Source: Thermoleophilaceae bacterium
Lineage (GTDB): Bacteria > Actinomycetota > Thermoleophilia > Solirubrobacterales > Thermoleophilaceae
Reading direction: 5' to 3'
Assembly: GCA_040901445.1 (NCBI GenBank)
Contig: JBBDYQ010000015.1
Coordinates: 62,001-126,000, forward strand
Length of the DNA stretch: 64,000 nucleotides
Part shown: positions 26,134-42,960 of the stretch, one piece after another
How positions within the stretch are numbered: position 1 is the first letter of the stretch
Layout of the letters: the number at the start of each line of letters is the position of its first letter
Made by a program: the position numbers and the translations under genes
The notes under the pieces: generated by a model
What the model saw: only the letters and a program-made list of their open reading frames with translations
What the model was told of the DNA's origin: nothing
Databases searched by the model: none

Positions 26134-27032
26134 GACGCCGCCCTCTGCTCCAGCTCGTGGATCTCGTGCAGGCAGTCCACGAGACCCTGGCCGATGTCGG
26201 TGTAGTAGTTGCTCACGAGCTTGCGCGCCACGCGGGGCCGGAACGTGTACGGGGTGATGGCGTAGTGCGCCGAGGAGGGAAGCTCGTCCTCCGGCGCCGG
26301 AGGACGTAGGTCCAGCTCCACGTCGGCGCCCACGATCTCCCTGATGAGCTTGAGGAACTCGCCGAAGTGGAGATGGTGGTTGCCGGTGAGCACCACCTGC
26401 TCATCGATGAACTCCTCCGCCAGCACCTCCACGCTCAGCCGGGCGGCGTCCTCCACGTGGATGTACTCCCGCAGCTCCTCCCCGGTCCCGCGCGCGGTGA
26501 TGCGCCGCTCGCGCAGCGCCTGCCCGAGGTAGCGGTGAACGCTGTTGGTGTCGGTGGCGCGGCGGCCGTAAAGGGTCCCGTAACGGAGGATCGTGTAGGG
26601 CGGGACGCCGAACTCACGGCGGTACTCCTCGATGTAGAGCTCGCACGCCTGCTTGCTGACGCGGTAGAAGGAGCCAGCCTCGCTGGCCACGTAGATGCTG
26701 CTGGCGAACACGTAGCGGCCGATGTCCGCCCGCCGCGCTGCCTCCAGCACGTTGGCATTGCCCGCGACGTTGATGCGCACGGTGTCGAGGGGCTTGTTGC
26801 GCGACTCGTCGATGTCGGCGAGCCCGGCGAAGTTGTAGACGGCCTCCTGGCCGGCCACGGCCGCCGTCACGTCGTCGAGCTCGGTGATGTCGCCGGCCAC
26901 GAAGCGCTGGTCGTCGCGCAGCCAGCGCGACTCCAGCGCGTCGAAGATCGTGACGTCGTGGCCTGCCTCGGACAGGGCATCGGCCACGTGGCTTCCCACG
27001 AAGCCGGAGCCGCCGAGCACGAGCACCCTCAC
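26130..27032 (-). CDS. NAD-dependent epimerase/dehydratase (extended SDR)
   Basis: 300 residues from the GTG at 27032 (GTGA). Nucleotide motif GGSGFVGSH (7-15), active-site serines in FASSIYV, and YRVSK as YxxxK. REYIHVEDAA is the usual second signature. The chain is shorter than typical hexose epimerases (about 320-340). It sits between a SerA-like dehydrogenase and a HAD phosphatase, so it probably handles the same nucleotide-linked intermediate. Exact reaction not decidable. Confidence 0.83.
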   Translation of the reverse strand: MRVLVLGGSGFVGSHVADALSEAGHDVTIFDALESRWLRDDQRFVAGDITELDDVTAAVAGQEAVYNFAGLADIDESRNKPLDTVRINVAGNANVLEAARRADIGRYVFASSIYVASEAGSFYRVSKQACELYIEEYRREFGVPPYTILRYGTLYGRRATDTNSVHRYLGQALRERRITARGTGEELREYIHVEDAARLSVEVLAEEFIDEQVVLTGNHHLHFGEFLKLIREIVGADVELDLRPPAPEDELPSSAHYAITPYTFRPRVARKLVSNYYTDIGQGLVDCLHEIHELEQRAAS

Positions 27033-27976
27033 GCCGAGCCGCCGCCCAGGTGCTCGAGTACGTTGCGCACCGCCTCCTCCTCCATCATGGCCCGCGCCTC
27101 GCGGGCGTAGGAGCCGGCATGCGGGGTGAGCAGCACGTTGGACAGCTCGGCGAGGGGGCCCTCGTAGGGCTCGTCGGCGAACACGTCCACGTGGGCGCCG
27201 CCGATCCGGCCGGACGCGAGCGCGTCGTGCAGGGCGGACTCGTCCACGAGCCCGCCGCGCGCGGCGTTCACCAGCACCGCGCCCTCCTTCATCGTCTCCA
27301 TCAGCTCGGTGCGGCCGATGATCTGGCCGCCGCCCGACACATGCAGGGTGACCACGTCGGACTCGGCGAGCAGACGCTCCAGGGACAAGAGCGTCACGCC
27401 ATGCTCCGCGGCCCAGGAGTCTTCGGGCTGGACGTCGTGGGCCAGCAACACCGGCTCGAACGGCGCGAGCAGGGCCGCCACGCGGCGACCGATGCGGCCG
27501 AGCCCCACGATGCCCACGGTCTTGCCCCGCAGCAGCGTGCCCATGGTGCGGGTCCAGCGGCCGGCTCGCAGCTCGGCGTCCATGTGGTGGAGATGGCGCA
27601 GCACCGCGAGCATGCCGCCCAGCGCCAGCTCGGCGGCGGCGTCGGTCACGGCGTCCGGGGTGTTGCGCACGGCGATGTCCAGCCGCTCGGCGGCCGCCAG
27701 GTCCACGTTGTCGATGCCAACGCCCACCCGGGAGATCACCTTGAGCCGCCCGGCCCCCTCAAGCACCCCCGCCGTGAGCGGCTCGGTGCCGGCGATCACG
27801 CCGTCGGCGTCGCGGACGAGCTCCGCCACCTCGTCCTCCTTGAGCTTGCGCCCATGCGGGTTCTCGAGCACCTCCACGCCGGCGGCGCGCAGCGCCTCGA
27901 GCGGCTCGGGGCCGGCCGCCCCGAACGACGACACCGACAGCGCGACTCGGGGCCTACCCTCAGCGGACGAGCTCAT
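27029..27976 (-). CDS. D-2-hydroxyacid dehydrogenase (SerA-like)
   Basis: 315 residues; the ATG at 27976 overlaps the previous stop by 17 bases. NAD motif VGIVGLGRIGRRV, the substrate arginine in NAARGGLVDE, and the catalytic histidine in LTPHAGSYARE are all present. Length fits the short SerA type without an ACT regulatory domain. It would oxidise or reduce a 2-hydroxy/2-keto acid, such as a 3-carbon phospho-acid or a sugar acid. Together with a HisC-like aminotransferase and a HAD phosphatase in the same operon it mirrors the SerA-SerC-SerB logic of the phosphorylated serine route (inference). Confidence 0.85.
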   Translation of the reverse strand: MSSSAEGRPRVALSVSSFGAAGPEPLEALRAAGVEVLENPHGRKLKEDEVAELVRDADGVIAGTEPLTAGVLEGAGRLKVISRVGVGIDNVDLAAAERLDIAVRNTPDAVTDAAAELALGGMLAVLRHLHHMDAELRAGRWTRTMGTLLRGKTVGIVGLGRIGRRVAALLAPFEPVLLAHDVQPEDSWAAEHGVTLLSLERLLAESDVVTLHVSGGGQIIGRTELMETMKEGAVLVNAARGGLVDESALHDALASGRIGGAHVDVFADEPYEGPLAELSNVLLTPHAGSYAREARAMMEEEAVRNVLEHLGGGSA

Positions 27977-28733
27977 CGCCCTGCTCGAGCTCGACAGCAT
28001 CCTCCACGCCGTGCTGGCGGAGCCAGAACTCGACGGCCGGGAGCTGCCACTCGTAGTCGATGTCGCAGCCGCCCCACGACTCGATGGGCGCGATGCGCTT
28101 GCCCATCCAGCGCTGCGGCAGGATGCCGAAGCCGGGCTCAAGGCACTGCGGCCGGACTATCGACACGCCCATGTCCGCGTACCAGACGTCGCCCTGGGAA
28201 TCGCGGTCGCAGCTCAGCGTGTCGGGATCGCCGAACACGTCGAAAGGCACGAACGGCTGCAGCGTGCCGTCGTCGTCCAGCCGCCGCGCCCGCAGCGGGC
28301 TCCACATGTTGTAGCGGGAGACGGTGACCGCGGAGTCGAGCGAGGGGTCGGCGCGCAGCTTCGCGACCCCCTCGTCGATCAGCTCGCCGGTGATCGTGGC
28401 CGCATTGGCGAACAGCAGCACCAGCAGCTCGATCTCCTGGCCCTCCTCGGCGAGGCTGTCGCGGATGACCTCGTAGCCGTGGCGGTAGGCGTCCTCGCCA
28501 AGCGCGTCGTCGGTGCACAGCTCGGGCGGACGCCGGATGGCCTCGGCGCCGTAGCGGGCCCCGACCTCCATGATCAGGTCGGAGTCGCTGGAGATGTAGG
28601 TGCGCTCCACGTGGGCGCTGTCATTGGCCGCGATGAGCGGGTAGGCCATCAGCGGACGGCCCAGCACGGGCATCACGTTCTTCCCGGGCATTCCGCTCGA
28701 GCCGCCCCGGCCGAGCATGAGCGCGACGATCAC
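27960..28733 (-). CDS. NeuA/KdsB-type cytidylyltransferase
   Basis: 257 residues from the GTG at 28733 (GTGA). GRGGSSGMPGKNVMPVLGRP (8-27) is the nucleotide-binding signature of acylneuraminate cytidylyltransferases, followed by TYISSDSDLI. The usual conserved arginine/lysine of the signature is retained. It would make a CMP-activated acid sugar or phosphonate-like group. A different, SpsF-type enzyme is at 42983, so the locus has two CMP-transferases on opposite strands. Acceptor molecule unknown. Confidence 0.8.
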   Translation of the reverse strand: MIVALMLGRGGSSGMPGKNVMPVLGRPLMAYPLIAANDSAHVERTYISSDSDLIMEVGARYGAEAIRRPPELCTDDALGEDAYRHGYEVIRDSLAEEGQEIELLVLLFANAATITGELIDEGVAKLRADPSLDSAVTVSRYNMWSPLRARRLDDDGTLQPFVPFDVFGDPDTLSCDRDSQGDVWYADMGVSIVRPQCLEPGFGILPQRWMGKRIAPIESWGGCDIDYEWQLPAVEFWLRQHGVEDAVELEQGDELVR

Positions 28734-29527
28734 GCCAGTGCCTCCTCGGTCGGGATCAGGACATCGAGCTCCGGGGGACGCCGCAGATCCACGCGCTCTC
28801 GCAACGCGTCCGGCCACTCGTACGGCAAGGCGATGCAGGTGAGCGGGCGTCCGGCTGCGCCGCCCCGCTCCACCACGAAGGTTGCGAAGCAGATGTCGCC
28901 CTGCACCCCGGTAACAGTATCCGACGGGGTGCCCTCGTAGCCGTGGGCGAGGATAGCGGCGGGGCCCAGGCCCAGCAGGCTCTCGGCGAAGCGCTCCCAG
29001 GACAGGCACAGGTAGGGCACGGTGGTCCTCCCGTCCCACTCGCCGCTCAGCGCGATGCGCTGGCGGGCCTCCAGGTGACCGGCCTCGGCGGTCTGTAGCC
29101 GCACGTCGAAGAACAGCCGCCGCCGGGTGACCCTCCACATCTCCGCCAGGGCGTCCTCGAAGCGCGGCTCCCAGTGGAGCCAGCCCAGCGCCTGCACGGA
29201 GTCGAAGGCGCCGTCGGCGAACGGCAGCCCCTCGGCGCAGTCGGCCACCTCGAACTCGCATTCCGGGTGCAGGCGCCGCGCGGCCTCCACGAGCGGCTCG
29301 GAGGCGTCCACGCCCGCGTAGCTCAGCGCGGGGTTCCAATTGCGCCAGACGGCCGCGAAGCCGCCCGCCGCACAGCCCACGTCGAGCACGCTCTGCGACT
29401 CCTCGGCCAGAGCCGGCAGGAAGCGCCGCTCGGACGGATAGAGGTCCTCCGGCCGGTGCCGGTGAGCCGTGTAGTACTCCACCAGGTCGGGGTGGTCGGC
29501 CCAGGCCGCCACGTGGGCGCGGGTCAT
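28730..29527 (-). CDS. Class I SAM methyltransferase
   Basis: 265 residues, ATG at 29527 (ATGA). SAM motif VLDVGCAAGGFAAVWRN, acidic motif YAGVDASEPLV, then LPFADGAFDSVQALGWLHW and EMWRVTRRRLFFDVR. The last 50 residues contain YEWPDALRERVD and a proline-rich end. First in position of three successive methyltransferase genes. Likely O- or N-methylates a sugar or decoration made by the operon; a small soluble cytoplasmic enzyme. Confidence 0.82.
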   Translation of the reverse strand: MTRAHVAAWADHPDLVEYYTAHRHRPEDLYPSERRFLPALAEESQSVLDVGCAAGGFAAVWRNWNPALSYAGVDASEPLVEAARRLHPECEFEVADCAEGLPFADGAFDSVQALGWLHWEPRFEDALAEMWRVTRRRLFFDVRLQTAEAGHLEARQRIALSGEWDGRTTVPYLCLSWERFAESLLGLGPAAILAHGYEGTPSDTVTGVQGDICFATFVVERGGAAGRPLTCIALPYEWPDALRERVDLRRPPELDVLIPTEEALA

Positions 29528-30360
29528 CGCGGGTTCTCCGTGAGGAGCTCGAACACGGTCGCGCTGTTGAACACCGCAAGGCGGCGATCGACGCGCTGCG
29601 CAAGCCGGTAGAGGGCGGGCAGGCGGCGGTGCAGGTCGATGCGCTCGAGCTCGAGCGCGAATGCTGCGTGACGGACCCGACCGACCCGATAGCCGGTCTC
29701 CGCCGCGAGCCTGCGCACCTCGCTGCGACGGCGGCGGAAGCCGTGCTCGCGCCGAAGGACGGCGAGCCGCCGGCCGGAGAGCCGGGCCCTGACGCGCGTG
29801 GCGTGCGCGATCGCCGGCCGCATCAGCCCGTCGATCAGGCGGGTGGCCAGGTTGTCGTGGTAGCGGAGCACGAAGATCACGCGCCCTCCCGGCTCGAGCA
29901 CGCTGCGGAGGTTGAGCAGGGCCTTGCGGAGCTCGTCGTCGTCGAGCGCGAAGTCGAGGCCCGCGACGAGCACGTCGTCGAAGCGCTCCTGCAGGTCAGG
30001 CGCGAGCACGTCGAAGCGCCTCACGGTCAACTCCGGGAAGAGGCGCCCGGCATCCGCGAGTGCGTCCTCCACGATGTCGGTGGCCACGATCCGGTACCCG
30101 GCGAGCGCGAACGGCACCTCGTGCTCGCAGTACCCGGAGCCGAGCGAGAGGATCGACCGCTCCCGCGACAGCAGCTCGCCGAGCACGTCGTGGAGCTCTG
30201 CCACCCAGCGGGTCCGCGCGTGCTCGAGGAGGTCCTCCCGCGTGCGGAAGCGGCCCTCCCGGTAGCCCATCGTCTCCGCGAACTCCTCCGGGTTGCGGTC
30301 GCGCTCCGCGCGGGACGGCCCGTCCCCCGAGGCGACGACGTAGTCGTGCGCCAGTCGCAC
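29524..30360 (-). CDS. SAM-dependent methyltransferase-like protein
   Basis: 278 residues from the GTG at 30360. Motif I is ILSLGSGYCEHEVPFA, followed by IVATDIVEDAL and VLEPGGRVIFVLRYHDN. The C-terminal 90 residues are unusually arginine-rich (for example RARLSGRRLAVLRREHGFRR), which suggests membrane or polyanion contact. The stop overlaps the next gene as ATGA. Substrate unknown; context suggests glycan methylation. Confidence 0.75.
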   Translation of the reverse strand: MRLAHDYVVASGDGPSRAERDRNPEEFAETMGYREGRFRTREDLLEHARTRWVAELHDVLGELLSRERSILSLGSGYCEHEVPFALAGYRIVATDIVEDALADAGRLFPELTVRRFDVLAPDLQERFDDVLVAGLDFALDDDELRKALLNLRSVLEPGGRVIFVLRYHDNLATRLIDGLMRPAIAHATRVRARLSGRRLAVLRREHGFRRRRSEVRRLAAETGYRVGRVRHAAFALELERIDLHRRLPALYRLAQRVDRRLAVFNSATVFELLTENPR

Positions 30361-30364
30361 GGCC

Positions 30365-31204
30365 TCAGGCGCGGTGCGCCAGCTCGAAGAACTGGAAGCG
30401 GCGGAAGCCGCCGCCCACGAGATGGCGGTTGCGCGCAGCCGCGAGGAACGCGCGGTGCGCCGGCCGGGCGGGCGGCCCGAGCAGCTCGAACACGTCCTCC
30501 GAGCGGATCGCGAGCGGAGTGTGCGTGAGCAGCGCCGCGAAGTCGTCGCGGCAGAACTCGAAGCAGTGCCCGTAGCCGCGGTCGATCGAGGGGTCGCGCG
30601 GGTGCACGAACGTCTGCGGGACCCAGGGGATCGAGACGAACACGCGGCCCCCGGGACGGCACACCCGGGCGAGCTCGTCCAGCAGGCGCGGCGGGCTCTC
30701 CACGTGCTCGAGCGTCTCGAAGCAGAGCACGTAGTCGAAGCTGCCGTCGTCGAAGGGCAGCTCCTGGCCGTCGCCCAGCTTCGCCTCGATCCCGTTGGCC
30801 TCGATGTTGCGGATGGCCGCCTGGGAGAGGTTGAAACCGATGCCGGGCTGGCCGAGGTGCTTGAGCATCAGCCCGTCGGTGTCGCCCACGTCAAGGAAGG
30901 AGGCCTGGTCGAGGCGGTCGCCCACTAGGGAGCGCAGCCGGTGCACGCGCCAGGCGTGAAACAGGCGCAGCCCGCGGCGGAGGTACTCCAGGTCCACCAC
31001 CTCGTCCTCGCCGAAGTGGAGGCGGGCATGTTCGTCGGTCATGGCCTCGTACCAGGGGCGCAGCTCGGGCTGGGCCCGCAGTCGGCTCTCGATGAGCTCG
31101 CCGACGATTCGCCCGGAGCGGCGCTGCACCTCACGGCCCGCGGCGGGCGCCAGCGGCCCGGCGACCCGCCGGGCCGCCTGCCTGGCCTGCAGCGCGACAC
31201 TCAC
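30365..31204 (-). CDS. Class I SAM methyltransferase
   Basis: 279 residues from the GTG at 31204, which overlaps the aminotransferase stop; the open frame to 31687 is a shadow of that gene. Motif I FLDVGDTDGLMLKHL, then LPFDDGSFDYVLCFETLEHV and ELARVCRPGGRVFVSIPW. An N-terminal helical region (1-95) precedes the Rossmann core. Third methyltransferase in the operon. Four bases separate its end from the next GTG. Confidence 0.8.
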   Translation of the reverse strand: MSVALQARQAARRVAGPLAPAAGREVQRRSGRIVGELIESRLRAQPELRPWYEAMTDEHARLHFGEDEVVDLEYLRRGLRLFHAWRVHRLRSLVGDRLDQASFLDVGDTDGLMLKHLGQPGIGFNLSQAAIRNIEANGIEAKLGDGQELPFDDGSFDYVLCFETLEHVESPPRLLDELARVCRPGGRVFVSIPWVPQTFVHPRDPSIDRGYGHCFEFCRDDFAALLTHTPLAIRSEDVFELLGPPARPAHRAFLAAARNRHLVGGGFRRFQFFELAHRA

Positions 31205-32295
31205 CGGGCAGTTGCCTCCAGCGACTCCGCGAGCGCGTCCGAGAACCGCTCCATCAGGGCCGGCGGTCCCAGCGTCGCGCGGATGCAGTCGCGCAGGCAC
31301 GACGCCGGCGCCGGGCCCTTGACCAGGAAGCCGCGCTCGGCGAGCGCCTCTGTGAGGGTCGCAGGGTCGGCCCGGTGCCCCACGCGGATCTGCATGAAGT
31401 TGGTGGGGCTCTCGAGCGGCTGCAGGCCAAGCTCGGCGGCGCGCGCGGACACCACCGCTCGCCCCGCGTCGACCTCCGCCACGTAGTCGTCCGCCACCTC
31501 GGGGTGCGCGAGCACCACCCGCAGGGCGGCCGCCGACAGCGACGCGATGTCGTACACCGAGCGGACCTTGAACAGCGTGCGGATCACGTCGGGGTGGCCC
31601 GCGGCGAAGCCGAGCCGGAGCCCCGCCAGGCCCCACGCCTTGGAGAACGTGCGCGTGACCACGAGGTTCGGATGCTCCTCCACCCACGGCAGGACCGTGG
31701 TGCGCGAGAACGGGAAGTAGGCCTCGTCGATCACCACGAGCGCGCCCGCCGCGGCATCGATCACTGCACGCAGGGCCTCCTCGGAGAGGACCGTGCCCGT
31801 GGGCTGGTTGGGGTTGGCGATGAGCACCAGCCGCGAGCCCTCCACGGCAGCCAGGACGCGGTCGACGTCGAGCGACATGTCGGCGTTGAAGGGCACCTTC
31901 GCGGGCTCGGCCTGGAACATCGCGGCGTACACGGCGTACATCGCGTAGCTGGGGTCCAGCATCGTCACGCGGTCGCCGGGGCGGACGTACGCGAAGTGCA
32001 ATGCGCGAAATGCGGCGTCCGACCCGGAAGTCAGCAGCAGCCGTTCGCGCGCCAGTCCCGCGGCCGCTCCAAGGTCGGCGTACGCACCGTCGAGGATTGG
32101 ATACTCAGTGAGCGCCGGACCGTCGATCGCTGACCGCAGTTCGTCCAGAATTGCATCAGGGAGCGGACTGAGACGCTCATTGCGGTCGAGCGGCACGAGC
32201 CCAGAGCGCTCACCGCCCCCCTCCCGGAGTCGCTCGATCGCCGCAACGCCTGGGACGGGCACAGGAGCCTGGATGTCGGAGGAAATACTGCTCAC
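31201..32295 (-). CDS. HisC-like PLP aminotransferase
   Basis: 364 residues from the GTG at 32295. Fold type I class II motifs are intact: LIANPNQPTGT, VVIDEAYFPFS and the PLP lysine in TRTFSKAWGLAGLRLGF. LDRNERLSP corresponds to the LDANENP start of HisC. It is first in the minus-strand operon with no other histidine genes, so it likely aminates a keto acid or keto-phosphate of the glycan pathway. A possible minus-strand TTGCAC-N17-AGTATT promoter overlaps the start; if used, translation would begin at the GTG at 32262. Confidence 0.83.
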   Translation of the reverse strand: MSSISSDIQAPVPVPGVAAIERLREGGGERSGLVPLDRNERLSPLPDAILDELRSAIDGPALTEYPILDGAYADLGAAAGLARERLLLTSGSDAAFRALHFAYVRPGDRVTMLDPSYAMYAVYAAMFQAEPAKVPFNADMSLDVDRVLAAVEGSRLVLIANPNQPTGTVLSEEALRAVIDAAAGALVVIDEAYFPFSRTTVLPWVEEHPNLVVTRTFSKAWGLAGLRLGFAAGHPDVIRTLFKVRSVYDIASLSAAALRVVLAHPEVADDYVAEVDAGRAVVSARAAELGLQPLESPTNFMQIRVGHRADPATLTEALAERGFLVKGPAPASCLRDCIRATLGPPALMERFSDALAESLEATAR

Positions 32296-32371: not shown

Positions 32372-32382
32372 ACTTGGCCTCC

Positions 32383-34947
32383 GTGAGCACGAGTTCGAAC
32401 ACCGCTCTGGCAACCATCACGGGCATCGTGCGTGACCACGCGAGGGACGATGACGGATCCACGTTCCTGCGGCTGCTCCACGCCGGAAGCGACGACGAAA
32501 CGCTGTCCTACGCAGAACTCGTGGAGCATGCAGGACGTTGGTCCGCACGTTTCGCTGCGGACGGGCTGACGCCCGGTGATCGCGTGATCGTGATCCTTCG
32601 CCACTCGCTTGATCTCTACGCCGCCTACATCGGTGCTCTGCTCGGTGGACACGTGCCAGCGATGTTCTCGTTCCCCTCGCCGAAGTACAGCGAGGATCGC
32701 TACTTCGAACACGTGGGCGTCCTGATCGCCAGTTCTGGCGCCCGCGAGATCGTCACATATCCTGAACTTGCCGAGAAGCTGCCGCAACGCGAACGAACCT
32801 CGCTCGGAAACGCTCGGGTCACCACGCCCGCGCATCTACAGTCGGTCCCGGTTGCCCCCGCGCCGACCGCGGTGGATCCCGAGGCAGCGGCCTTTGTTCA
32901 GTATTCGTCGGGCACGACCGGCATCAAGAAGGGTGTGGTTGTCAGCCATCGCGCCCTGCTGTGGCAGCTGGAGGCGTATGCAGATGCGATCGGAGCCGGT
33001 CCCCGAGACCGGATCGTTTCGTGGCTGCCGCTGTACCACGACATGGGTCTGATCGCGTGTCTCTTCCTGCCCCTGGTTCGGAAGATCCCCTTGGTCGCGA
33101 TGTCACCCTTCGATTGGGTTGCACAGCCGGCCATGTGGCCTCGGGCCATCTCCGATTACGGGGGAACGCTCAGCTGGCTCCCGAACTTCGCCTACAGCTT
33201 CATGGCCGCCAACGTGCGCGACGACGAGCTGGCAGGAGTCGATTTGTCCACGCTTCGCGGAGTCGTCAACTGCTCTGAGCCCGTGATGAGGTCTAGTCAC
33301 GAGGCGTTCTTAGCCCGGTTTGGGCGTCACGGGATGACCGAGGATCGTCTCGCCGCCTCATACGCGATGGCCGAGAACACCTTCGCCGTTACCAGCGGCG
33401 GCTTCGGCGTGCAGCTGCGCGAGGGGCATACAGTGCTGAGCTCGGGCCGCCCACTCCCGGGAGTGGAGGTTCGAATCAGAGGGCTCGCTCACGGAGATGG
33501 CGACGACCGCGAGATTGGCGAAGTCGTCTTGCGGTCTCCGTGCCTCATGGACGGATACGACGGGAACCAGGAAGCCACGGCTGAAGCGTTGCGTGATGGC
33601 TGGCACCTCACAGGGGACCTCGGCTACCTCGACGGCGATGACCTGTTCGTCACGGGGCGTGTCAAGGACCTGATCATCATTGGCGGTCGCAACGTTTATC
33701 CGCAGGATGTTGAGGCGGCCGTACACAACGCGGAAGGCGTCATACCTGGACGCGCCGTCGCTTTCGGCGTTCCGGATGAGCGCCAAGGCACGGAGTCGCT
33801 GGTGGTTGTCGCCGAAACCAACGAGTCGGACACGGGTCGTCGTGAGGAGATCCGTCGCCTCATCCACGCGTCCGTGGCCGAGCTCACGGAGGTAGTGCCC
33901 GGTGACATCTTGCTCGTCGAGCCGAGAACGTTGCACAAATCCTCCTCAGGGAAACTTGCGCGCGCCGCGAACCGGGAGCTCTATCTCGGGATGAGGCAAC
34001 CGCACGCAAGCATGTCCAAACGAGCATCCCGCGGGGGGGCGACCGATCTGATCGACGCGGTGCGCGTAGCCGTCGCTCGTGTGGCCAGGGTTGCGCGCGT
34101 GAGGGACGATGAATCCCTCCTACGTTCTGGCCTAATCGATTCGTTCGGGATGGTCGAACTCTTCGCGGAGCTCGAGGCGGCTACGGGTGTCCGCCTAACC
34201 GCGGACCACCTGACCGAGCTCGAGCGCATGGACACGATCGCCGCTTTGGCGAATCTGGTGACAGACGGTGCCGTTCGCCCGGCGCCGTCCACACTCGTGC
34301 TCGACTCTCGAGACATCCCGATGGCGGTTGGCGGCCCGCAACCCGCGCGAAGGGGACAGGTTGGCTGGTGGACGCGGCTCTATCGGGCCATCCTGCGCCG
34401 ACATGGGGTCCAGTTCGGCCCCGGGCTGCGAGTGCTTGGTCCAATTCATCTTCAGCTCGAGGGGAACGGCTCACACGTTTCACTGGGCCGAAACGTGACG
34501 CTGATGCCCGGCGTGCACCTGAAGAACCGCGAGGAGGGCCGCATCGTTCTCCACGATGGCGCCAAGCTCGACAGCGTCGTCCGGCTCGTCGCTGCGAATG
34601 ACGCGACGATCGAGCTAGGCGAGAACGCCGTGTTCGGGATGGGCACCGTCGTCAACGCAGGTGCAGATGTACGGATCGGCCGGAATGCCTTCACGGCCTC
34701 GCACTGCGTGATCATCTCGTCCGAGCACGGCCTAGCATCGGGAGTCCCGATGCGTGAGCAGCCGTACACGCACTCGCCCGTCCTCATAGGAGAGGACGTT
34801 TGGCTCGGTGCAAACTGCCTTGTGTCCAAGGGGGCACGCATCGGCCACGGAGCGGTGGTGTCGGCAGGCTCCGTGGTGGCTGGCGACGTGCCCCCGGCAG
34901 CGATCGTGCAGGGACAACCGGCCCGGGTCATCAAATTCCGCCAATAG
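32383..34947 (+). CDS. Acyl-AMP ligase / acyl carrier / left-handed beta-helix acyltransferase fusion
   Basis: 854 residues from the GTG at 32383 (TTG at 32374 is an alternative). Residues about 1-545 are a fatty-acyl-AMP ligase-type adenylation domain: YSSGTTGIKKG at 174, LPLYHDMGL, YAMAENTFA, GDLGYLDGDDLFVTGR and the catalytic K524 in SSSGKLARA. Residues about 555-625 form a carrier domain with GLIDSFGMVEL; S587 is the expected phosphopantetheine site. Residues about 650-854 are hexapeptide repeats ending VSAGSVVAGDVPPAAIVQG, as in WbbJ/LacA acetyltransferases, with the catalytic His region SSEHGLASG. The chain could activate, carry and transfer one acyl group to a sugar. GC is lower than neighbouring genes (about 65% over 32401-32460). 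Confidence 0.88.
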   Translation: MSTSSNTALATITGIVRDHARDDDGSTFLRLLHAGSDDETLSYAELVEHAGRWSARFAADGLTPGDRVIVILRHSLDLYAAYIGALLGGHVPAMFSFPSPKYSEDRYFEHVGVLIASSGAREIVTYPELAEKLPQRERTSLGNARVTTPAHLQSVPVAPAPTAVDPEAAAFVQYSSGTTGIKKGVVVSHRALLWQLEAYADAIGAGPRDRIVSWLPLYHDMGLIACLFLPLVRKIPLVAMSPFDWVAQPAMWPRAISDYGGTLSWLPNFAYSFMAANVRDDELAGVDLSTLRGVVNCSEPVMRSSHEAFLARFGRHGMTEDRLAASYAMAENTFAVTSGGFGVQLREGHTVLSSGRPLPGVEVRIRGLAHGDGDDREIGEVVLRSPCLMDGYDGNQEATAEALRDGWHLTGDLGYLDGDDLFVTGRVKDLIIIGGRNVYPQDVEAAVHNAEGVIPGRAVAFGVPDERQGTESLVVVAETNESDTGRREEIRRLIHASVAELTEVVPGDILLVEPRTLHKSSSGKLARAANRELYLGMRQPHASMSKRASRGGATDLIDAVRVAVARVARVARVRDDESLLRSGLIDSFGMVELFAELEAATGVRLTADHLTELERMDTIAALANLVTDGAVRPAPSTLVLDSRDIPMAVGGPQPARRGQVGWWTRLYRAILRRHGVQFGPGLRVLGPIHLQLEGNGSHVSLGRNVTLMPGVHLKNREEGRIVLHDGAKLDSVVRLVAANDATIELGENAVFGMGTVVNAGADVRIGRNAFTASHCVIISSEHGLASGVPMREQPYTHSPVLIGEDVWLGANCLVSKGARIGHGAVVSAGSVVAGDVPPAAIVQGQPARVIKFRQ

Positions 34948-34975: not shown

Positions 34976-36817
34976 ATGTGTGGAGTAGCCGGATACGTGG
35001 GCCCGGCGCCGCTCGAGGGCGGGCGCGTGGAACGCACGCTGGAGCTCATGCGCCACCGCGGCCCCCAGGGCTCGGGCCATCGCCGCTTCTCCACCCCCGA
35101 CGGCCGCACGGTGGAGCTGCTGCACACGCGGCTCGAGATCATCGACCTGTACGCCCGGTCCAACCAGCCGCTGGCCGCCGACGGGCGCTGGATCGGCTAC
35201 AACGGCGAGCTCTACAACTACGTTGAGCTGCGTCGCGACCTGGAGGGCCGCGGCGAGCCGTTTGCCACCGAGTCCGACACCGAGGTGCTGCTGCGGCTGG
35301 TGGGTCGCGACGGGCTGGACGCGCTCGATCGCTGCGAGGGCATGTGGGCATTCGCCCTCTACGACGAGGGCTCGGGCGCCCTGCACCTCTCGCGCGACCG
35401 CTTCGGCGAGAAGCCGCTCTACATCCTGCGCGACGGCGCCGGGGGCCTCTACTTCGGCTCCGAGGCCAAGTTCGTGGCCGAGCTCGCGGGACGCCGCCTG
35501 CGGCCCGACCACGAGCACCTGCACCGCTACCTGGTGAACGGCTACAAGTCGCTGTACAAGCAGCCGGCCACGTTCTTCGAGGACCTCGAGGAGCTGCCCC
35601 CCGGCCACGTGCTGAGCGTCGGGGAGGGCGGCGGCGAATCGCTGGCGCCGTACTGGCGTCCCGAGGTGGGCACGCCCGACGAGGACATGGCCTACGAGGA
35701 CGCGGTGGCCGGGGCGCGGGAACGGCTCATACGCTCTGTGGAGCTGCGCCTGCGCGCCGACGTGCCGCTCGCCTTCTGCATGAGCGGCGGAGTGGACTCG
35801 CAGTCACTCATCAGCGTCGCCAAGCGCGTGTTCGACTACGACGTGCACGGCTTCACGATCGTCAACAGCGACGAGCGCTACGAGGAGCAGGACATGGTCG
35901 ACTACGCGGTGGCGGAGCTCGGCGTGCGCCACACGGCCATCCCGGTGGACACGCGCGACTTCCTGCCGCGGCTGCGCACGCTCGTGCGCCACCACGACGC
36001 GCCCGTCTACACCATCACCTACTTCGCGCACTGGATGCTGATGCAGTCGATCGCCGAGCACGGCTATCGGATCTCGATCAGCGGCACCGCGGCGGACGAG
36101 CTCTTCACGGGCTACTACGACCACCACCTGGCCTACCTGCGCGAGGTGCACGGCGAGCCGGAGCTGCACGCCGCATCGCTGGCCGCCTGGCGCGAGCACG
36201 TGGCGCCGGTGGTGCGCAACCCGCACCTGAAGGACCCCGACCTGTTCGTGAAGGACCCCGGCTTTCGCGACCACATCTACCTGGACGCCGACGAGTTCGC
36301 CTCGCACCTGCACGTGCCGTTCAACGAGCCGTTCGAGGAGGCGCGCTTCGACGGCGCGGGACTGCTGCGCACCCGCATGCTCAACGAGCTGTTCCACGAG
36401 GCGGTGCCGGTGATCCTGCACGAGGACGACCTCAACGCCATGTACTTCTCGATCGAGAACCGCTCGCCGTTCCTGGACCGCGACCTGTTCGAGTTCTCGC
36501 TGCGCATCCCGGAGCGCCACCTGGTGCAGGACGGCCGCGCCAAGGCGGTGCTGCGCGACGCCATGGACGGCATCGTGCCGCCGCGGATCACCGAGAACCG
36601 TCGCAAGGTGGGCTTCAACGCACCCGTGCTCGACTATCTCGACGTGGGCGATCCGGAGGTCCGCGGCTGGCTGCTGGGCGACGGCGAGATCTGGGAGCAC
36701 GTGCGCCGCGACGCCATCGAGGGCATCCTCGACCTCGACTTCCTCCCGAACTCCAAGAGCAAGTTCCTCTTCAACCTCGTCAACGCAAAGCTCTTCCTGG
36801 AGGAGTTCGGGTCGTGA
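34976..36817 (+). CDS. asnB: Asparagine synthase-like glutamine amidotransferase
   Basis: 613 residues, ATG at 34976 so that Cys2 (MCGVAGYVG) is the glutaminase nucleophile. The N-terminal Ntn domain shows HRGPQGSGH, YNGELYNY and ESDTEVLL; the synthase domain has the ATP-pyrophosphatase loop SGGVDS at 270-275 and SGTAADELFTGY. Length and motifs fit AsnB, but in surface-glycan loci such proteins amidate sugar carboxylates or peptide-like decorations. Here it opens an operon with two oxidoreductase/aminotransferase genes, so amidation of an acidic sugar is the likelier role (inference). Confidence 0.85.
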   Translation: MCGVAGYVGPAPLEGGRVERTLELMRHRGPQGSGHRRFSTPDGRTVELLHTRLEIIDLYARSNQPLAADGRWIGYNGELYNYVELRRDLEGRGEPFATESDTEVLLRLVGRDGLDALDRCEGMWAFALYDEGSGALHLSRDRFGEKPLYILRDGAGGLYFGSEAKFVAELAGRRLRPDHEHLHRYLVNGYKSLYKQPATFFEDLEELPPGHVLSVGEGGGESLAPYWRPEVGTPDEDMAYEDAVAGARERLIRSVELRLRADVPLAFCMSGGVDSQSLISVAKRVFDYDVHGFTIVNSDERYEEQDMVDYAVAELGVRHTAIPVDTRDFLPRLRTLVRHHDAPVYTITYFAHWMLMQSIAEHGYRISISGTAADELFTGYYDHHLAYLREVHGEPELHAASLAAWREHVAPVVRNPHLKDPDLFVKDPGFRDHIYLDADEFASHLHVPFNEPFEEARFDGAGLLRTRMLNELFHEAVPVILHEDDLNAMYFSIENRSPFLDRDLFEFSLRIPERHLVQDGRAKAVLRDAMDGIVPPRITENRRKVGFNAPVLDYLDVGDPEVRGWLLGDGEIWEHVRRDAIEGILDLDFLPNSKSKFLFNLVNAKLFLEEFGS

Positions 36818-37203
36818 GGTTCGAGCCGGTGGAGCCGCCGCGGGAGTTCGAAGTCGGGCGCCGCGGCGGGCGGCTGCGCCACGTGGGCGACGCATGGCTG
36901 GGCCATGACGAGGTGCTGACGCTGCGCACCGAGTCGGGCACCGAGGTGGACCTCACCCGCAAGTCGTGGGGCTGGTACGGCGGCCCGTCGCTCAACGGGC
37001 GCTTGCGCGACCACCGCCTGCGCGCGGCGCTCTGCATGGGCTTGCCCCGTGAGGGCGAGCAGGCCCAGCGCATGTACCTGCTGTTCGTGGAGGAGGGCCA
37101 CGAGGCGGACTTCGAGGGCTACCTCGCCGCCGAGCACATGCAGGTGGTGGCCTGGCTGGACTCCGACGAGGCCGTGGCCGAGGCCGCGCGGCGGCTGGCG
37201 TGA
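36814..37203 (+). CDS. Small conserved-looking protein of the AsnB operon, function unknown
   Basis: 129 residues from the GTG at 36814; both junctions are GTGA overlaps (with AsnB and with the oxidoreductase), which strongly supports translation. It is soluble, with a beta-rich first part (RHVGDAWLGHDEVLTLRTES), a WGWYGGPSLNGRLRDHRL core and an acidic C-terminal helix. I do not recognise the family. Position suggests an accessory or small subunit for the amidotransferase or the sugar oxidoreductase. Confidence 0.6.
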   Translation: MRFEPVEPPREFEVGRRGGRLRHVGDAWLGHDEVLTLRTESGTEVDLTRKSWGWYGGPSLNGRLRDHRLRAALCMGLPREGEQAQRMYLLFVEEGHEADFEGYLAAEHMQVVAWLDSDEAVAEAARRLA

Positions 37204-38204
37204 CGCTGCGCGCCGGGGTTATCGGCCTGGGGGTGGGCGAGCAGCACGCGGACGCGTACGCCGCGCACCCCCAGGCCGAGGTCGCCGCGCTCTGCGACCT
37301 CGACGAGGCCAAGTTGAATGCGGTGGGCGAGCGCCACCCGGGCGCCCGGCTCACGGCCTCCGCCGAGGAGCTGCTCGCCGACGACGCGATCGACATCGTC
37401 TCCGTGGCCTCCTTCGACTCGTTCCACCACGAGCAGGTCAAGCGGGCCATCGAGAGAGGCAAGCACGTCTTCGTGGAGAAGCCACTCTGCCAGCACGAGT
37501 GGGAGGCGCGCGAGCTGGCCGAGGCGCTCCAGGCGCAGCCCGGGCTGGTGCTCTCGTCCAACCTCCTGCTGCGCGTCTCGCCGCGCTTCGAGCAGGTCAA
37601 GCGCTGGGTGGAGCAGGACCGCTTCGGCCGCATCTACTTCCTCGAGGGCGCCTACGACTACGGCCGGCTGTGGAAGCTCACGGAGGGCTGGCGGGGCGAC
37701 CTCGACCACTACTCGGTGACCCTGGGCGGCACCGTCCACGTGGTGGATCTGCTGCTGTGGCTGACAGGCGACCGCGTGAAGAGCGTCACCGCGCGCGGCA
37801 ACCGGATCGCCAGCGAAGGGACCAAGTTCCGCTTCGATGACCTCGTGGCCGCCACGCTCGAGCTGGAGAGCGGAGCCGTGGCGCAGGTCACCGCCAACTT
37901 CGGCGGCGTCCACCCCCACTACCACGAGGTGGAGGTGTGGGGCACGCAGGCGACGTTCGTCAACGGGCTCGAGAGCGGGACGCTGTGGACGGAGGGCGCG
38001 GACGGAGCGGTGCCCGAGGCGGTGGACACCCCGTATCCAGGGGTGCGCAAGGGCGACCTGGTGGCCTCGTTCGTGGACGCGGCGGCCGGCGGCGGCCCCC
38101 CGATCGTGACCGCCGCGGAGGTGTTCGAGGTGATGGCCGTGTGCTTCGCCATCGATCGCGCGGCGGCCTCGGGCGAGACCGTCGAGCCGGAGAGGTTCGG
38201 CTAA
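37200..38204 (+). CDS. Gfo/Idh/MocA family sugar oxidoreductase
   Basis: 334 residues from the GTG at 37200 (GTGA). Rossmann start AGVIGLGVGEQHADAY, signature HVFVEKPLCQHEW, and the GGTVHVVDLLLWLTG active-site helix with its histidine. In nonulosonic-acid and diamino-sugar pathways such dehydrogenases form the 3- or 4-keto substrate used by a DegT aminotransferase, which is exactly the next gene (12-base gap). Paralogue of the enzyme at 18890. Confidence 0.85.
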   Translation: MTLRAGVIGLGVGEQHADAYAAHPQAEVAALCDLDEAKLNAVGERHPGARLTASAEELLADDAIDIVSVASFDSFHHEQVKRAIERGKHVFVEKPLCQHEWEARELAEALQAQPGLVLSSNLLLRVSPRFEQVKRWVEQDRFGRIYFLEGAYDYGRLWKLTEGWRGDLDHYSVTLGGTVHVVDLLLWLTGDRVKSVTARGNRIASEGTKFRFDDLVAATLELESGAVAQVTANFGGVHPHYHEVEVWGTQATFVNGLESGTLWTEGADGAVPEAVDTPYPGVRKGDLVASFVDAAAGGGPPIVTAAEVFEVMAVCFAIDRAAASGETVEPERFG

Positions 38205-38216: not shown

Positions 38217-39371
38217 ATGATCCCCTTTGGAAAGCCGATGATCGGCCAGGAGGAGCGCGACGCGGTCGCCGAGGTGCTCGCCGGCACCACGCTCACGCAC
38301 GGCCCCCGGGTGAAGGAGTTCGAGGCCGCCTTTGCGGAGTTCACGGGCGCGCCGCACGCCATCGCCACGGCCACCTGCATGGCGTCCCTGCACCTGGCCT
38401 ACCTCTACCTCGGAATCGGCGCAGGCGACCAGGTGATCGTGCCCGCCCAGACGCACGTTGCGATGGCGCACGCGGTACAGGCGGTGGGTGCCGAGCCGGT
38501 CTTCTGCGACGCCGACCCCCGCACCGGGAACGTCGATCTCGACCAGCTCGAGGGCCTGGTGACCGACCGGACCCGAGCGATCTCGGTGGTCCACTACCTC
38601 GGCCGGCCCGTGGACATGGGCCGGGTGCTCGAGATCGCCCGCCGCCACGACTGCTTTGTGGTGGAGGACTGCGCCATCGCGCTGGGCGCCACCATCGGGG
38701 GCACCCACGTGGGCCTGCACGGCGACGTGGGCTGCTTCTCCTTCTACCCCGTCAAGCACATCACGACGGGCGAGGGCGGCATGGTCATCACCACCCGCGA
38801 TGACGTGGCCGACCGCGTCTCCAAGCAGCGCGCGTTCGGCATCGACAAGAGTGTTCTGGCCGATCGCCGCCACACCGGCGCCTACGAGATCGAGCACCTC
38901 GGGTTCAACTACCGGCTTGGCGAGATCGGGGCCGCCATGGGCGTGGAGCAGATGAAGCGCCTGCCGGGCTTCCTCGAGCAGCGCGAGCGCAACTTCGAGG
39001 CGCTGGCCCAGGGTCTCGGGGAGGTGGACGAGCTGCGGGTGCTCGAGAGCGGGCATGACGACGACAGGCGCTCGAGCCATTACTGCCTGGTCGCGGAGCT
39101 CGACGAGCCACTGGCCGGACACCGCGAGCAGATCATCGAAGCGCTCAAGGCCGAGGGCATCGGGACGTCGGTCTACTATCCGAAGCCACTGCCGGAGACC
39201 CGCTTCTACGGCGAAACCTATGGCCACCAGGCGGGTTCCCATCCCGTGGCCGCACGCATCAGCTACGGCTCGATCGCCTTCCCGGTCGGGCCCCACATCG
39301 AGGAAGGTGACGTGGAGACGATCGTCGAGGGCGTCAAGCGAGTCGTGTCCAAGGTGGCCGTCCATGGTTGA
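38217..39371 (+). CDS. DegT/DnrJ/EryC1/StrS sugar aminotransferase
   Basis: 384 residues, ATG at 38217. MIPFGKPMIGQEE is the family's N-terminal start, VVEDCAIALGA carries the cofactor Asp region, and SFYPVKHITTGEGGM contains the PLP-binding lysine. FNYRLGEIGAAMGVEQ is the conserved dimer/active-site segment. The reaction is transfer of an amino group to a nucleotide keto-sugar. Closest role models are LegC/PseC/SpsC, which fits the downstream NeuB synthase and CMP-transferase. Overlaps the next gene by 8 bases. Confidence 0.9.
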   Translation: MIPFGKPMIGQEERDAVAEVLAGTTLTHGPRVKEFEAAFAEFTGAPHAIATATCMASLHLAYLYLGIGAGDQVIVPAQTHVAMAHAVQAVGAEPVFCDADPRTGNVDLDQLEGLVTDRTRAISVVHYLGRPVDMGRVLEIARRHDCFVVEDCAIALGATIGGTHVGLHGDVGCFSFYPVKHITTGEGGMVITTRDDVADRVSKQRAFGIDKSVLADRRHTGAYEIEHLGFNYRLGEIGAAMGVEQMKRLPGFLEQRERNFEALAQGLGEVDELRVLESGHDDDRRSSHYCLVAELDEPLAGHREQIIEALKAEGIGTSVYYPKPLPETRFYGETYGHQAGSHPVAARISYGSIAFPVGPHIEEGDVETIVEGVKRVVSKVAVHG

Positions 39372-40401
39372 CGTCGCCGGCAAGCGGGTCGCGCTGGTGG
39401 GCGGCGCCGGGTTCATCGGCCATCAGCTCGCCATCGCCCTCAAGGAGCAGGGCGCCGAGCCGCACGTGATCGACGGGCTGGCCGTGAACAACCTGCTCCA
39501 CTACACGGCACTGCCCCCCGGCACGCCCAACCGCGAACTCTACATCAAGATCATCGAGCAGCGGTTCGCGAAGCTGCACGCGGCCGGGGTGCCCATCCAC
39601 GTCCAGGACGCGCGCGACTACCACGCGCTCTCGCACATCCTCGACGAGATCTCGCCGCAGACGATCGTGCACCTGGCGGCCATCGCGCACGCGGGCAAGT
39701 CGAACAAGGACCCGATGAGCACGTTCGGGCATTCGCTGCGCACGCTCGAGAACGCGCTCGACTTCGCCCGCGCCGACGGCGTGGAGCACTTCGTCTTCTT
39801 CTCCTCGAGCATGGTGTACGGAAACTTCCAGACGCCCGAGGTGTCTGAGGACCATCCGCTCGATCCGATCGGCATCTACGGCGCCCTCAAGCTGTCCGGC
39901 GAGAAGATCGTCACGGCCTACAAGCAGGTCTTCGACCTCGACTACACGATCATCCGCCCGTCGGCCCTCTACGGGCCGGGCTGCGTGAGCCGCCGGGTCA
40001 GCCAGATCTTCATCGAGAGCGCTCTCGTGGGGGACAAGCTGCGCGTGGACGGAGACGGCGACGAGCGGCTGGACTTCTCCTACATCGGCGACGTCGTGGA
40101 CGGCGTCCTGCGCGCGGTGGGCCATCCAGCGGCGCGCAACGAGTGCTTCAACATCACGGCGGGCAACGCGCGCCAGCTGCGCGAGCTGATCGAGCTCGTG
40201 CGCGAGCACTTCCCCGAGGTCGAGGTCGAGTACGTGGAGCGCGACGCCCTGCGCCCCTACCGCGGCACGCTCAGCATCGAGAAGGCCCGGCGACTGATCG
40301 GCTACGACCCCCAGACCACACTCGAGGACGGCCTCGACCGCTACGTGGCGTGGTACCGCGACCTCGTCTCGGACGGGGCGCTGGCCGCGCCGCCCGCCTG
40401 A
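39364..40401 (+). CDS. NAD-dependent epimerase/dehydratase, LegB-like candidate
   Basis: 345 residues, ATG at 39364 inside the end of the aminotransferase gene. GGAGFIGHQ nucleotide loop, SSSMVYGNF active-site serine region, and IYGALK as YxxxK. An insertion after the second strand (LAVNNLLHYTALPPGTPNRE, about 35-55) is unlike plain UDP-glucose epimerase. In a nonulosonate pathway it would be the 4,6-dehydratase/epimerase producing the keto-sugar; the exact activity is inferred from context. Confidence 0.8.
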   Translation: MVDVAGKRVALVGGAGFIGHQLAIALKEQGAEPHVIDGLAVNNLLHYTALPPGTPNRELYIKIIEQRFAKLHAAGVPIHVQDARDYHALSHILDEISPQTIVHLAAIAHAGKSNKDPMSTFGHSLRTLENALDFARADGVEHFVFFSSSMVYGNFQTPEVSEDHPLDPIGIYGALKLSGEKIVTAYKQVFDLDYTIIRPSALYGPGCVSRRVSQIFIESALVGDKLRVDGDGDERLDFSYIGDVVDGVLRAVGHPAARNECFNITAGNARQLRELIELVREHFPEVEVEYVERDALRPYRGTLSIEKARRLIGYDPQTTLEDGLDRYVAWYRDLVSDGALAAPPA

Positions 40402-40411
40402 CGCCGGCCCC

Positions 40412-41137
40412 GTGGAGATGCGTGAAGACGGCTGGCTCTCGGAGCGGTTCGGCCACCCCGTCTACTCGCTGACCGGCCTCGAAGGGGGATTCGATGCCGA
40501 GGCGCTGCGCGGGCACACAACCGGACGGGACGCCGCCAGCTACCAGGCCAAGGTCGCTGCCGGGGCCTGGGCGCTCGTGCGCGATCTCGTGGCAGCCGGC
40601 TTCCGCGAGGTCTGCACGGCGGTAACGCTCGCCCGGGCTCTGGAACCGCCGCTAGATCCCCGGCGGGACGAGCCCGTCGTGCGGCCCATCGACCCGGACC
40701 GGGACTCGGGTTTGCCCGATCTGGCTGCGCGGGCCTTCCACTCGAGCCGCTTCCACCTCGACCCCTACATCCCGGGCTCGGTGGCCACGGCGATCAAGCG
40801 GGACTGGACGGCGAGCTACCTGTCCGGAACGCGCGGCGTGGGCGCCCTCGTGGCCGAAGGCGACCATGGGCCCCTCGGCTTCCTCGGCATGCTCGGCACA
40901 GGCGATGTGCGCGTGATCGACCTCATCGCGGTGGACCCCGCCGGTCAGGGGCGCGGCGCCGGGCGTGCGCTCGTCCGGCGCCTGCTCGACGAGACATGCG
41001 GGCACTCCGAGCGCGTGGAGGTGGGGACGCAGACGGCGAACGGGCGGGCCATCCGCTTTTACGAGCGACTGGGCTTCGCGACGGCGCGAACCGCCCACGA
41101 CCTCCACCTCCACACCGGTACCCCACGGTGGGGTTGA
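40412..41137 (+). CDS. GNAT-family N-acetyltransferase
   Basis: 241 residues from the GTG at 40412; the ATG at 40418 is nearly as good. The C-terminal 150 residues form the GNAT core, with IDLIAVDPAGQGRGAGRALV as the acetyl-CoA loop (Q-x-x-G-x-G/A) and RAIRFYERLGFATAR as the final motif. The N-terminal 90 residues hold a separate region like that of WecD/SpsD-type sugar acetyltransferases. It probably N-acetylates the amino-sugar made by the DegT enzyme. Stop and next start overlap as TGATG. Confidence 0.83.
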   Translation: MEMREDGWLSERFGHPVYSLTGLEGGFDAEALRGHTTGRDAASYQAKVAAGAWALVRDLVAAGFREVCTAVTLARALEPPLDPRRDEPVVRPIDPDRDSGLPDLAARAFHSSRFHLDPYIPGSVATAIKRDWTASYLSGTRGVGALVAEGDHGPLGFLGMLGTGDVRVIDLIAVDPAGQGRGAGRALVRRLLDETCGHSERVEVGTQTANGRAIRFYERLGFATARTAHDLHLHTGTPRWG

Positions 41138-42960
41138 TGAAGGTCCCGGCAGCGTCCGCGGTCGCGGCGTTCGAGGCCGCCTATGTCGAGCGAGCGCGGC
41201 GCGAGCTCGGCTCCCGCCTCGCGACCGCCGAGGCCGTCGTCCTTGACCGCCTGCCGCTCGCGGATGGCCGGCCAGCGCTTGCAGGCTGGTGGTGCCCAGA
41301 GGACGCGGGCGACGGCCTGATCGTGCTACCCAACCCGTGGGACGAGCGGGCGGCCATCGAGCCGTGCGTCGATTACGTCTCGGCGATCGTCGACCTTCTA
41401 ATCGCACACGGGGCGACGGTCATGGAGGAGGCCCACGATGCCGCGCACGCCGCGGTGTACTGGGATGTCCTGTTGCGTCCGTGGCTCACATTTATGGCCC
41501 ACGTGGGCCTCGACCGGCGGATGTTCTGCGCAGCAGTCACGGACCTGGCACCCGATCTCCCTGTTGCAATTGGGACGCCCCCGGAGGTTCCTCCAACGAT
41601 GGGGGAGGCCGTCGAACTGGTGCGGAGGGATGCGGGGAACCGCTCGATCGGGACCTACTTCGCGCAGCGTCTGGATCTCCCGGTGACGGACGCGATACAG
41701 CCTTTGCCCGCGGCTCCAACCCAACCACCTCGCTCGACGCCAGCCGGCTGGGCGCTGATCGCGCTTGAGCTCATGATCCAGGGCACAACCGCAGCTGTGG
41801 CATCAATGAAAACCGGGCGTCGCGTCGTCCTCGTCGGCGGCGGGCATCTTTCGGCCATCGACACACTACGTCTCATGCGCCGCGTGCGCGGCCTTCGAAT
41901 CATCCGCGGCCCGGGACCGCAACCCGGTCTTCGTCCGGAAAGCCCCGTTCGCGACGACATCCGTCGCCGTTTCGCAGCAATGGAGACAGACGATCCCTGC
42001 GTCGCGGACATCGCAGCTTTCGCAGCAAGAATGCTACCCCGGACGGTGCTGGAGGACTACGAGGCGGTGGTCACGGCGAGTCGGCGCCGCTACGGCGCCG
42101 CCTGCGTTGCGATCGCAGGCAACTACCGGGCCCAGGACGTCGAGGCGGAGTTCCTTGGGCGCTGCGCGGAGGCCGGCTTGCTGCGTGCCTTTGTCCAACA
42201 CGGGGGGACCTATCTCCAGGCGAAGGTGAACGCGTACGAGAGTCTCGAGATCCGTCCCTGGGCGGCTTTTATGAGCTGGGGCGGTAGGGGACGAAGCGTG
42301 CGACCGCTCCCAAGTCCGCGTCTAGCGCGTATCCGTGACAGCCACGTGGGTAGCAGAAGGATCGTCATCCTAGAGTGGCTCATGCCGCCCGATACGTACC
42401 TCTCGCGTATCGGGACTAAGCCGCTGGCAAACCAGGGCTATGCCCAACACGACCTGCTTGCCGAGTTTGTCCGCCACGCCGACGCCTTCCAAAACAACCT
42501 GTTCCTCAGGCGCTTCCCATATGTCGGGCTCGACGCTGAGCGCGACCCCGTCGTCGCCGCGCTGCCACATCGAGCACCAGCGACTCGGCGCAGCGCGACG
42601 CGGCTGATGCAGTCTGCGGGGTTGTGTGTCCTCACGTACCCGGACACCCCGTTCATCGAAGCGATGGTGATCGGAGTGCCGACCGTCGGGCTATGGGACC
42701 CGGACCTCTGGGAGTTCCGCGACGACGCCCGCGGCCCGTTCGACGCGTTGCGCGCCGCCGGGGTGCTCTTCTCCGATCCCCGCGCAGCGGCAGCACATGT
42801 TGAAGCGATTCACGAGCGGGCCTCGGACTGGTGGGCCTCGCGTGAGATCCAGGATGCCCGTCAGCTCTTCCTCGACCGCTTCGCGATCGGCGGGGATTGG
42901 CTCGCGGCCTGGACGTTCTTCCTCCGCGAGCTCCGCGATCGCCCGGCTGCGCCAAGGTGA
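41137..42960 (+). CDS. LIC12162-family putative transferase
   Basis: 607 residues, ATG at 41137. Segments match the pattern of the LIC12162 family from Leptospira glycan loci: YWDVLLRPWLTFMAH followed by GLDRRMF, FVQHGGTYLQAK, ILEWLMPPDTYLSRIGTKP, and TYPDTPFIEAMVIGVPTVGL with WWASREIQDARQLF near the end. The family is thought to transfer a sialic-acid-like or other unusual sugar. It occupies the slot where sps-type operons carry the UDP-sugar hydrolase SpsG. GC is low for the window (about 58% over 42481-42540), a sign of transfer. Assignment is from motif memory. Confidence 0.65.
   Translation: MKVPAASAVAAFEAAYVERARRELGSRLATAEAVVLDRLPLADGRPALAGWWCPEDAGDGLIVLPNPWDERAAIEPCVDYVSAIVDLLIAHGATVMEEAHDAAHAAVYWDVLLRPWLTFMAHVGLDRRMFCAAVTDLAPDLPVAIGTPPEVPPTMGEAVELVRRDAGNRSIGTYFAQRLDLPVTDAIQPLPAAPTQPPRSTPAGWALIALELMIQGTTAAVASMKTGRRVVLVGGGHLSAIDTLRLMRRVRGLRIIRGPGPQPGLRPESPVRDDIRRRFAAMETDDPCVADIAAFAARMLPRTVLEDYEAVVTASRRRYGAACVAIAGNYRAQDVEAEFLGRCAEAGLLRAFVQHGGTYLQAKVNAYESLEIRPWAAFMSWGGRGRSVRPLPSPRLARIRDSHVGSRRIVILEWLMPPDTYLSRIGTKPLANQGYAQHDLLAEFVRHADAFQNNLFLRRFPYVGLDAERDPVVAALPHRAPATRRSATRLMQSAGLCVLTYPDTPFIEAMVIGVPTVGLWDPDLWEFRDDARGPFDALRAAGVLFSDPRAAAAHVEAIHERASDWWASREIQDARQLFLDRFAIGGDWLAAWTFFLRELRDRPAAPR

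Follow-up and report, generated by a model that had tools for sequence, protein, structure and literature searches.

The gene at 32383-34947 of the window, the 64,000-nucleotide stretch of Thermoleophilaceae DNA analysed here, encodes one chain that carries a fatty acyl-AMP ligase (FAAL) part, an acyl carrier (ACP) domain and a hexapeptide (LbH) acyltransferase part, in that order. We propose, at a probability of about two in three, that this single polypeptide activates an acid, loads it onto itself and transfers it in the cytoplasm, through its LbH domain, to an acidic nonulosonic-type sugar. The FAAL part would adenylate a carboxylic acid with ATP, and the phosphopantetheine arm of Ser587, fitted by the AcpS of the genome, would accept the resulting acyl group in thioester linkage. 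Still in the cytoplasm, ahead of glycan export, the LbH domain, expected to be a trimer, would then acylate an amino or a hydroxyl group on the acidic nonulosonic-type sugar that the operon provides. The adenylation and thioester steps would follow from FAAL and ACP biochemistry, while acyl-ACP as the LbH donor, the sugar as the acceptor and the cytoplasmic location of transfer are suggested by gene association and by likeness to LpxA and LpxD. Sequence-level support for this reading comes from the architecture, the intact motifs, the gene order, the clade membership of the ligase, the occurrence of the parts in trans and the lack of a recognisable MBOAT. The features of the gene and of its operon are collected in Table 1.

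Table 1. The fusion gene, its parts and the genes downstream, in window positions.
Feature	Position	Strand	Remark
FAAL-ACP-LbH fusion, complete gene	32383-34947	+	854 aa, GTG start
Fatty acyl-AMP ligase part, residues 36-535	32488-33987	+	Pfam AMP-binding; best PDB relatives the FAALs 3PBK and 3KXW
YSSGTTG phosphate-binding motif, residues 174-180	32902-32922	+	
Shortened FAAL-specific-insertion region, residues 333-354	33379-33444	+	22 aa; by motif position
Catalytic Lys524 codon	33952-33954	+	within SSSGKLAR at 520; invariant in 17 FAALs
Acyl carrier domain, residues 559-625	34057-34257	+	Pfam PP-binding 25.4 bits, cut-off 20.8
Ser587 codon, predicted phosphopantetheine attachment site	34141-34143	+	GLIDSF; GLIDSFGMVEL at 583
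LbH (hexapeptide) acyltransferase part, residues ~660-854	34360-34944	+	Pfam Hexapep; WbbJ NCBIfam E 3.5e-20
His782 codon, invariant LbH histidine, presumed catalytic base	34726-34728	+	alignment of 17 LbH proteins
AsnB-type glutamine-hydrolysing amidotransferase	34976-36817	+	next gene, after 28-base gap
Small gene	36805-37203	+	start approximate
Gfo/Idh/MocA oxidoreductase	37200-38204	+	
DegT sugar aminotransferase	38217-39371	+	PseC-like
Sugar 4,6-dehydratase/epimerase (SDR)	39364-40401	+	
GNAT acyltransferase	40412-41137	+	WecD-like
Surface-carbohydrate transferase, putative, LIC12162 family	41137-42960	+	below family cut-off
CMP-sugar cytidylyltransferase	42983-43672	+	CTP_transf_3
NeuB-type nonulosonate synthase	43684-44691	+	
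Methyltransferase	44788-45864	+	low GC

The ligase is assigned to the FAAL clade. Its AMP-binding Pfam match (E 1.7e-53) covers residues 36-392, and the best-scoring NCBIfam models are mostly FAALs, none of them at its curated cut-off. In a fold search with the predicted ligase structure (AlphaFold), the best solved match was the Legionella FAAL 3KXW (E 7e-48). Sequence and fold place the ligase nearest FAALs and not nearest CoA ligases or amino-acid adenylation domains, the last of which are ruled out by the family, PDB and fold matches. Across 17 aligned FAALs the ATP-binding motifs vary little or not at all. For the carrier, the PP-binding match (E 1.7e-5) lies above the Pfam gathering score, and an ACP profile of the clade, which includes the window sequence, scores it at 92 bits. 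The host genome encodes one AcpS, a phosphopantetheinyl transferase, so that the DS motif, the fold and the modifying enzyme of an acyl carrier are all present. Structure prediction, one of the checks proposed by the earlier note, gave a full-length AlphaFold model with a confident FAAL part, a helical carrier in which a helix begins at Ser587, and a low-confidence LbH part. The YSSGTTG motif at 174, Lys524 and Ser587 within GLIDSFGMVEL all lie exactly where that note had put them, and the loss of Lys524 or Ser587 function in homologues, which it had named as evidence to the contrary, was not seen: Lys524 is kept in 17 of 17 FAALs, and every carrier read out among the relatives has the DS motif.

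The C-terminal part is classed as an LbH domain of the WbbJ/maltose O-acetyltransferase type, and with it the three Pfam domains that had been claimed for one protein stand in order. Both hexapeptide repeats (Hexapep E 1.7e-12, best stretch residues 800-834) and the invariant histidine were found. The closest solved relative is a maltose O-acetyltransferase (PDB, E 3.9e-32), while the LpxD-family model (E 8e-9) and the LpxA model (E 8e-8) show distant similarity. A structure model of the LbH part by itself reached pLDDT 82.8 with a doubtful topology and gave only weak Foldseek matches, none in the PDB at E<=0.001; the assignment is therefore drawn from sequence profiles and not from predicted structure.

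This affiliation also allows a different reading, in which the acid loaded by FAAL and ACP goes to a different enzyme, such as the GNAT of the operon, and the LbH domain is an ordinary acetyl-CoA-dependent O-acetyltransferase that the fusion only co-localises. WbbJ/maltose-type relatives characterised so far use acetyl-CoA, and the nearest relatives of this LbH domain are stand-alone proteins that do not adjoin FAAL or ACP genes. Against this, LbH enzymes that take acyl-ACP are known, namely LpxA and LpxD, and two related loci point the same way. In the Acidobacteriota locus L148 (7010-9631), LbH, ACP and FAAL are encoded by three genes whose ends overlap: the ACP start codon at 7729 overlaps the LbH stop, and the FAAL start at 7955 lies within the ACP gene. 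The LbH of L148 is of the CatB/Vat type, another subfamily than that of the window. In the Planctomycetota-group locus L125 (9264-12296), whose ligase is the sister of the window FAAL, a 1010-aa chain reads FAAL-ACP-SGNH (GDSL), which puts another acyl-transfer/hydrolase fold in the same place after the ACP, on an SGNH match below the Pfam gathering score. We consider co-localisation without acyl transfer unlikely. Transfer by the fused LbH domain is also favoured by what the genome offers as partners. No MBOAT was found in the window or in the whole host genome, in a genome search whose control was positive in 4 of 14 known genomes, and no second FAAL, ACP or LbH of the clade occurs elsewhere in the window, which makes the fused LbH the natural partner of the carrier.

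The phylogenetic position of the ligase bears on what the carrier feeds. In a careful tree the window FAAL is sister to that of L125 (support 100/99) and falls within a clade of 17 rows (support 100/97) that holds all the loci linked to MBOAT, SGNH or LbH genes. A quick tree of 132 FAALs sets this clade apart from all PKS/NRPS-like multidomain FAALs, a label assigned by frame length only. MBOAT genes adjoin at least 9 of the 17 clade FAALs (L009, L010, L128, L136, L146, L147, L194, L195 and L196), with L127 entered as a probable neighbour only, and none was detected beside about 118 FAALs outside the clade; flanks vary from about 1.5 to 10 kb per locus, so these counts are indicative. Fisher tests gave p 1e-10 for 10/18 against 0/118, with sequences that are related and not independent, and p 9e-4 for the long-flank set alone, with kinship ignored. 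Five of the adjacent MBOATs (L009, L010, L146, L147 and L196) end in F[IVL]YFQF, a type of terminus described as the acyl-shuttle motif of MBOAT-SGNH systems (PMC12148441), and in four of these loci (all but L147) a carrier was detected beside FAAL and MBOAT. L009 has a gene that was judged SGNH-like by eye, on a GNSH motif and with no Pfam match; MBOAT, FAAL and ACP genes follow it, next to a glycosyltransferase. L010 brings together MBOAT, FAAL, ACP, a DegT aminotransferase and an SGNH protein. Both loci include genes for glycans. These five loci appear to be Dlt-like systems with a FAAL as loader.

The clade would thus be a little-noticed FAAL branch whose relatives adjoin genes for cell-surface acylation and not antibiotic-type assembly lines. 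A broader proposal, to which we give even odds, is that this distinct branch loads acyl groups for cell-surface acylation in general, its ligase and carrier being paired with transferases that can replace one another: MBOAT with SGNH, fused SGNH, or LbH in trans or fused. In the same proposal the window protein would be the self-sufficient, cytoplasmic form, placing an unusual acid on a nonulosonic acid without recourse to CoA. Neither of two published statements fits this clade: that bacterial FAALs are "always" associated with PKS/NRPS (PMC8460268), and that, Dlt apart, no MBOAT/SGNH pathway has a carrier protein (PMC12148441, 2025). In a further locus, L126 (2163-3657, minus strand), the ACP and FAAL genes stand on either side of one for a 418-aa protein that has a weak DUF2920 match only and is possibly another acyl-transfer enzyme.

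The fusion gene is the first of a same-strand run of closely spaced or overlapping genes that extends through NeuB to a methyltransferase, a spacing that suggests a single transcript. The run probably encodes a nonulosonic-acid-type pathway: a NeuB-type synthase and a CMP-sugar transferase are recognised by Pfam, the curated NCBIfam cut-offs for NnaB and PseI are not reached, and a scan of the genes at 37-46 kb showed no recognisable PseG/NeuC-type UDP-sugar hydrolase/epimerase. The surface-glycan setting claimed by the earlier note is borne out by this sugar gene cluster and narrowed to a nonulosonic-acid-type operon. The operon also weighs on the reading of the chain as a starter module for a lipid or a polyketide/peptide product, in which the LbH domain would release the product onto a non-sugar acceptor. 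Bacterial FAALs as described stand in PKS/NRPS contexts (PMC8460268; PMC11837247), a genomic setting that is typical of them without strictly defining them. Here, however, the scanned neighbours of the fusion gene include sugar genes and no identified PKS/NRPS gene, and the clade stands apart from PKS/NRPS-fused FAALs, which makes a starter module improbable.

A further alternative arises from the FAAL-specific insertion in the N-terminal domain, a mark of FAALs that the window ligase shows only in reduced form: its insertion region, located by motif position rather than by structure, has 22 aa, whereas 16 relatives have 34-45 aa there and the sister protein L125 has 45. Its place among FAALs by phylogeny is unaffected, and we therefore call it a FAAL-clade enzyme with a reduced insertion. 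In this respect the earlier interpretation, which stood as to architecture, residues, context and GC, is refined. Discrimination against CoA may be relaxed in such an enzyme, and the ligase might mainly make acyl-CoA, used directly by the LbH domain, with the carrier secondary. However, deletion of the insertion in FAALs yields only weak CoA reactivity, and a separate pocket rejects CoA (PMC8460268), which leaves the consequences of the short insertion uncertain; the carrier motif is intact and tethered to the ligase. There is, in our view, only a slight chance that the enzyme works in this way.

The chain itself rests on a continuous frame. As the earlier note had it, 32383-34947 translates to 854 residues without a stop; an in-frame TTG lies upstream of the GTG start, at 32374. 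The coding pattern of codon-position GC continues across all three parts and their junctions, making a run-together of neighbouring genes unlikely, and the gene, with about 94 kb of contig C15 ahead of it in the assembly, is not at a contig edge. On frame, GC pattern and contig position together, run-together genes and an assembly artefact are rejected. A non-functional or artefactual fusion, through assembly error or gene decay, would accord with its being seen in one genome only, but is scarcely credible given that each of the three parts keeps its motifs intact, that the coding GC pattern runs throughout and that the gene is embedded in a long contig of a 25-contig genome rated 100% complete. 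The lower GC claimed for the gene was confirmed (0.64 against about 0.67-0.74 for most neighbours), and its GC3 is 0.75, compared with a window-ORF mean of 0.87 (SD 0.08). GC3 is equally low (0.77) in the putative transferase and the methyltransferase of the same cluster, so that low GC is not special to the fusion gene; acquisition of modules by horizontal transfer is plausible, without setting this gene apart.

A search by domain architecture, also proposed by the earlier note, covered the bacterium's own family, class and phylum together with samples of the Planctomycetota group, Acidobacteriota and the Myxococcota group. No second full-length fusion was found in 1,861 genomes, the 80 best GTDB loci and 72,556 plasmids, and an ACP-LbH query found no second ACP-LbH chain in 247 genomes of the phylum. 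The parts do co-occur in relatives, separate or differently fused, and the claim that they are usually separate proteins is supported at the level of sequence. The occurrence of the fusion in a single genome weighs against the proposed reading. In the open-licence literature, searched for ligases of the FAAL or acyl-AMP type that take part in acylating polysaccharides or nonulosonic acids, no report of the fusion was found. Neither a chain with all three parts nor a FAAL clade linked to MBOAT, SGNH and LbH genes appears to be described in that literature, in which FAAL-ACP didomains, Dlt, LpxA and separate ACP and AMP-synthetase genes in a pseudaminic-acid island are already known.

Several known systems share part of this logic. 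LpxA and LpxD are LbH acyltransferases that acylate a nucleotide sugar from ACP, but they use acyl-ACP from fatty-acid synthesis, need no ligase and are only distantly similar in sequence to the window LbH. AntD, which is the anthrose N-acyltransferase and adds 3-hydroxybutyrate, shares the hexapeptide sugar-acyltransferase fold, as do WbbJ and maltose O-acetyltransferase; these families use CoA thioesters and stand alone. In D-alanylation of teichoic acid by DltA, DltC, DltB and DltD, a dedicated carrier is charged by a ligase and supplies an acyltransferase that acts on an envelope polymer, and the clade relatives adjoin MBOAT and SGNH proteins. Dlt uses a D-Ala adenylation domain, whereas the window protein has a FAAL with an LbH domain in the same chain and is predicted to be cytoplasmic; ligase and dedicated carrier are shared, and no MBOAT partner was found in this genome. 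The didomains HapA, NocH and AmbG also join a FAAL to a carrier and load a free carboxylic acid, but they feed PKS/NRPS, while the window protein has a third, LbH domain, a sugar operon and a shortened insertion (PMC11837247). Group II of the Aeromonas flagellin glycosylation islands is a pseudaminic-acid locus with an ACP and an AMP-dependent synthetase, likened here by gene content only; its genes are separate and include luxE and luxC, for an acyl-protein synthetase and an acyl-CoA reductase (PMC7874193). The window protein would place this logic in one expressible polypeptide, and a single enzyme would suffice to ask which acids beyond acetate and D-alanine are put onto bacterial surface glycans via carriers.

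Upstream of the fusion gene, on the minus strand, lies a cluster (25456-32295) with a PGDH-like 2-hydroxyacid dehydrogenase, an SDR, a HAD phosphatase, three methyltransferases and a HisC-like aminotransferase; a second, PseF-like cytidylyltransferase frame lies in it, within 27960-29603. With several methyltransferases and a hydroxyacid-dehydrogenase-like gene close by, the substrate might, as a speculation, be a hydroxy acid that has been modified. Beyond this cluster, also on the minus strand (22029-25501), are a Wzx-type flippase and a TIGR04326-like surface carbohydrate protein, the latter a weak match below cut-off.
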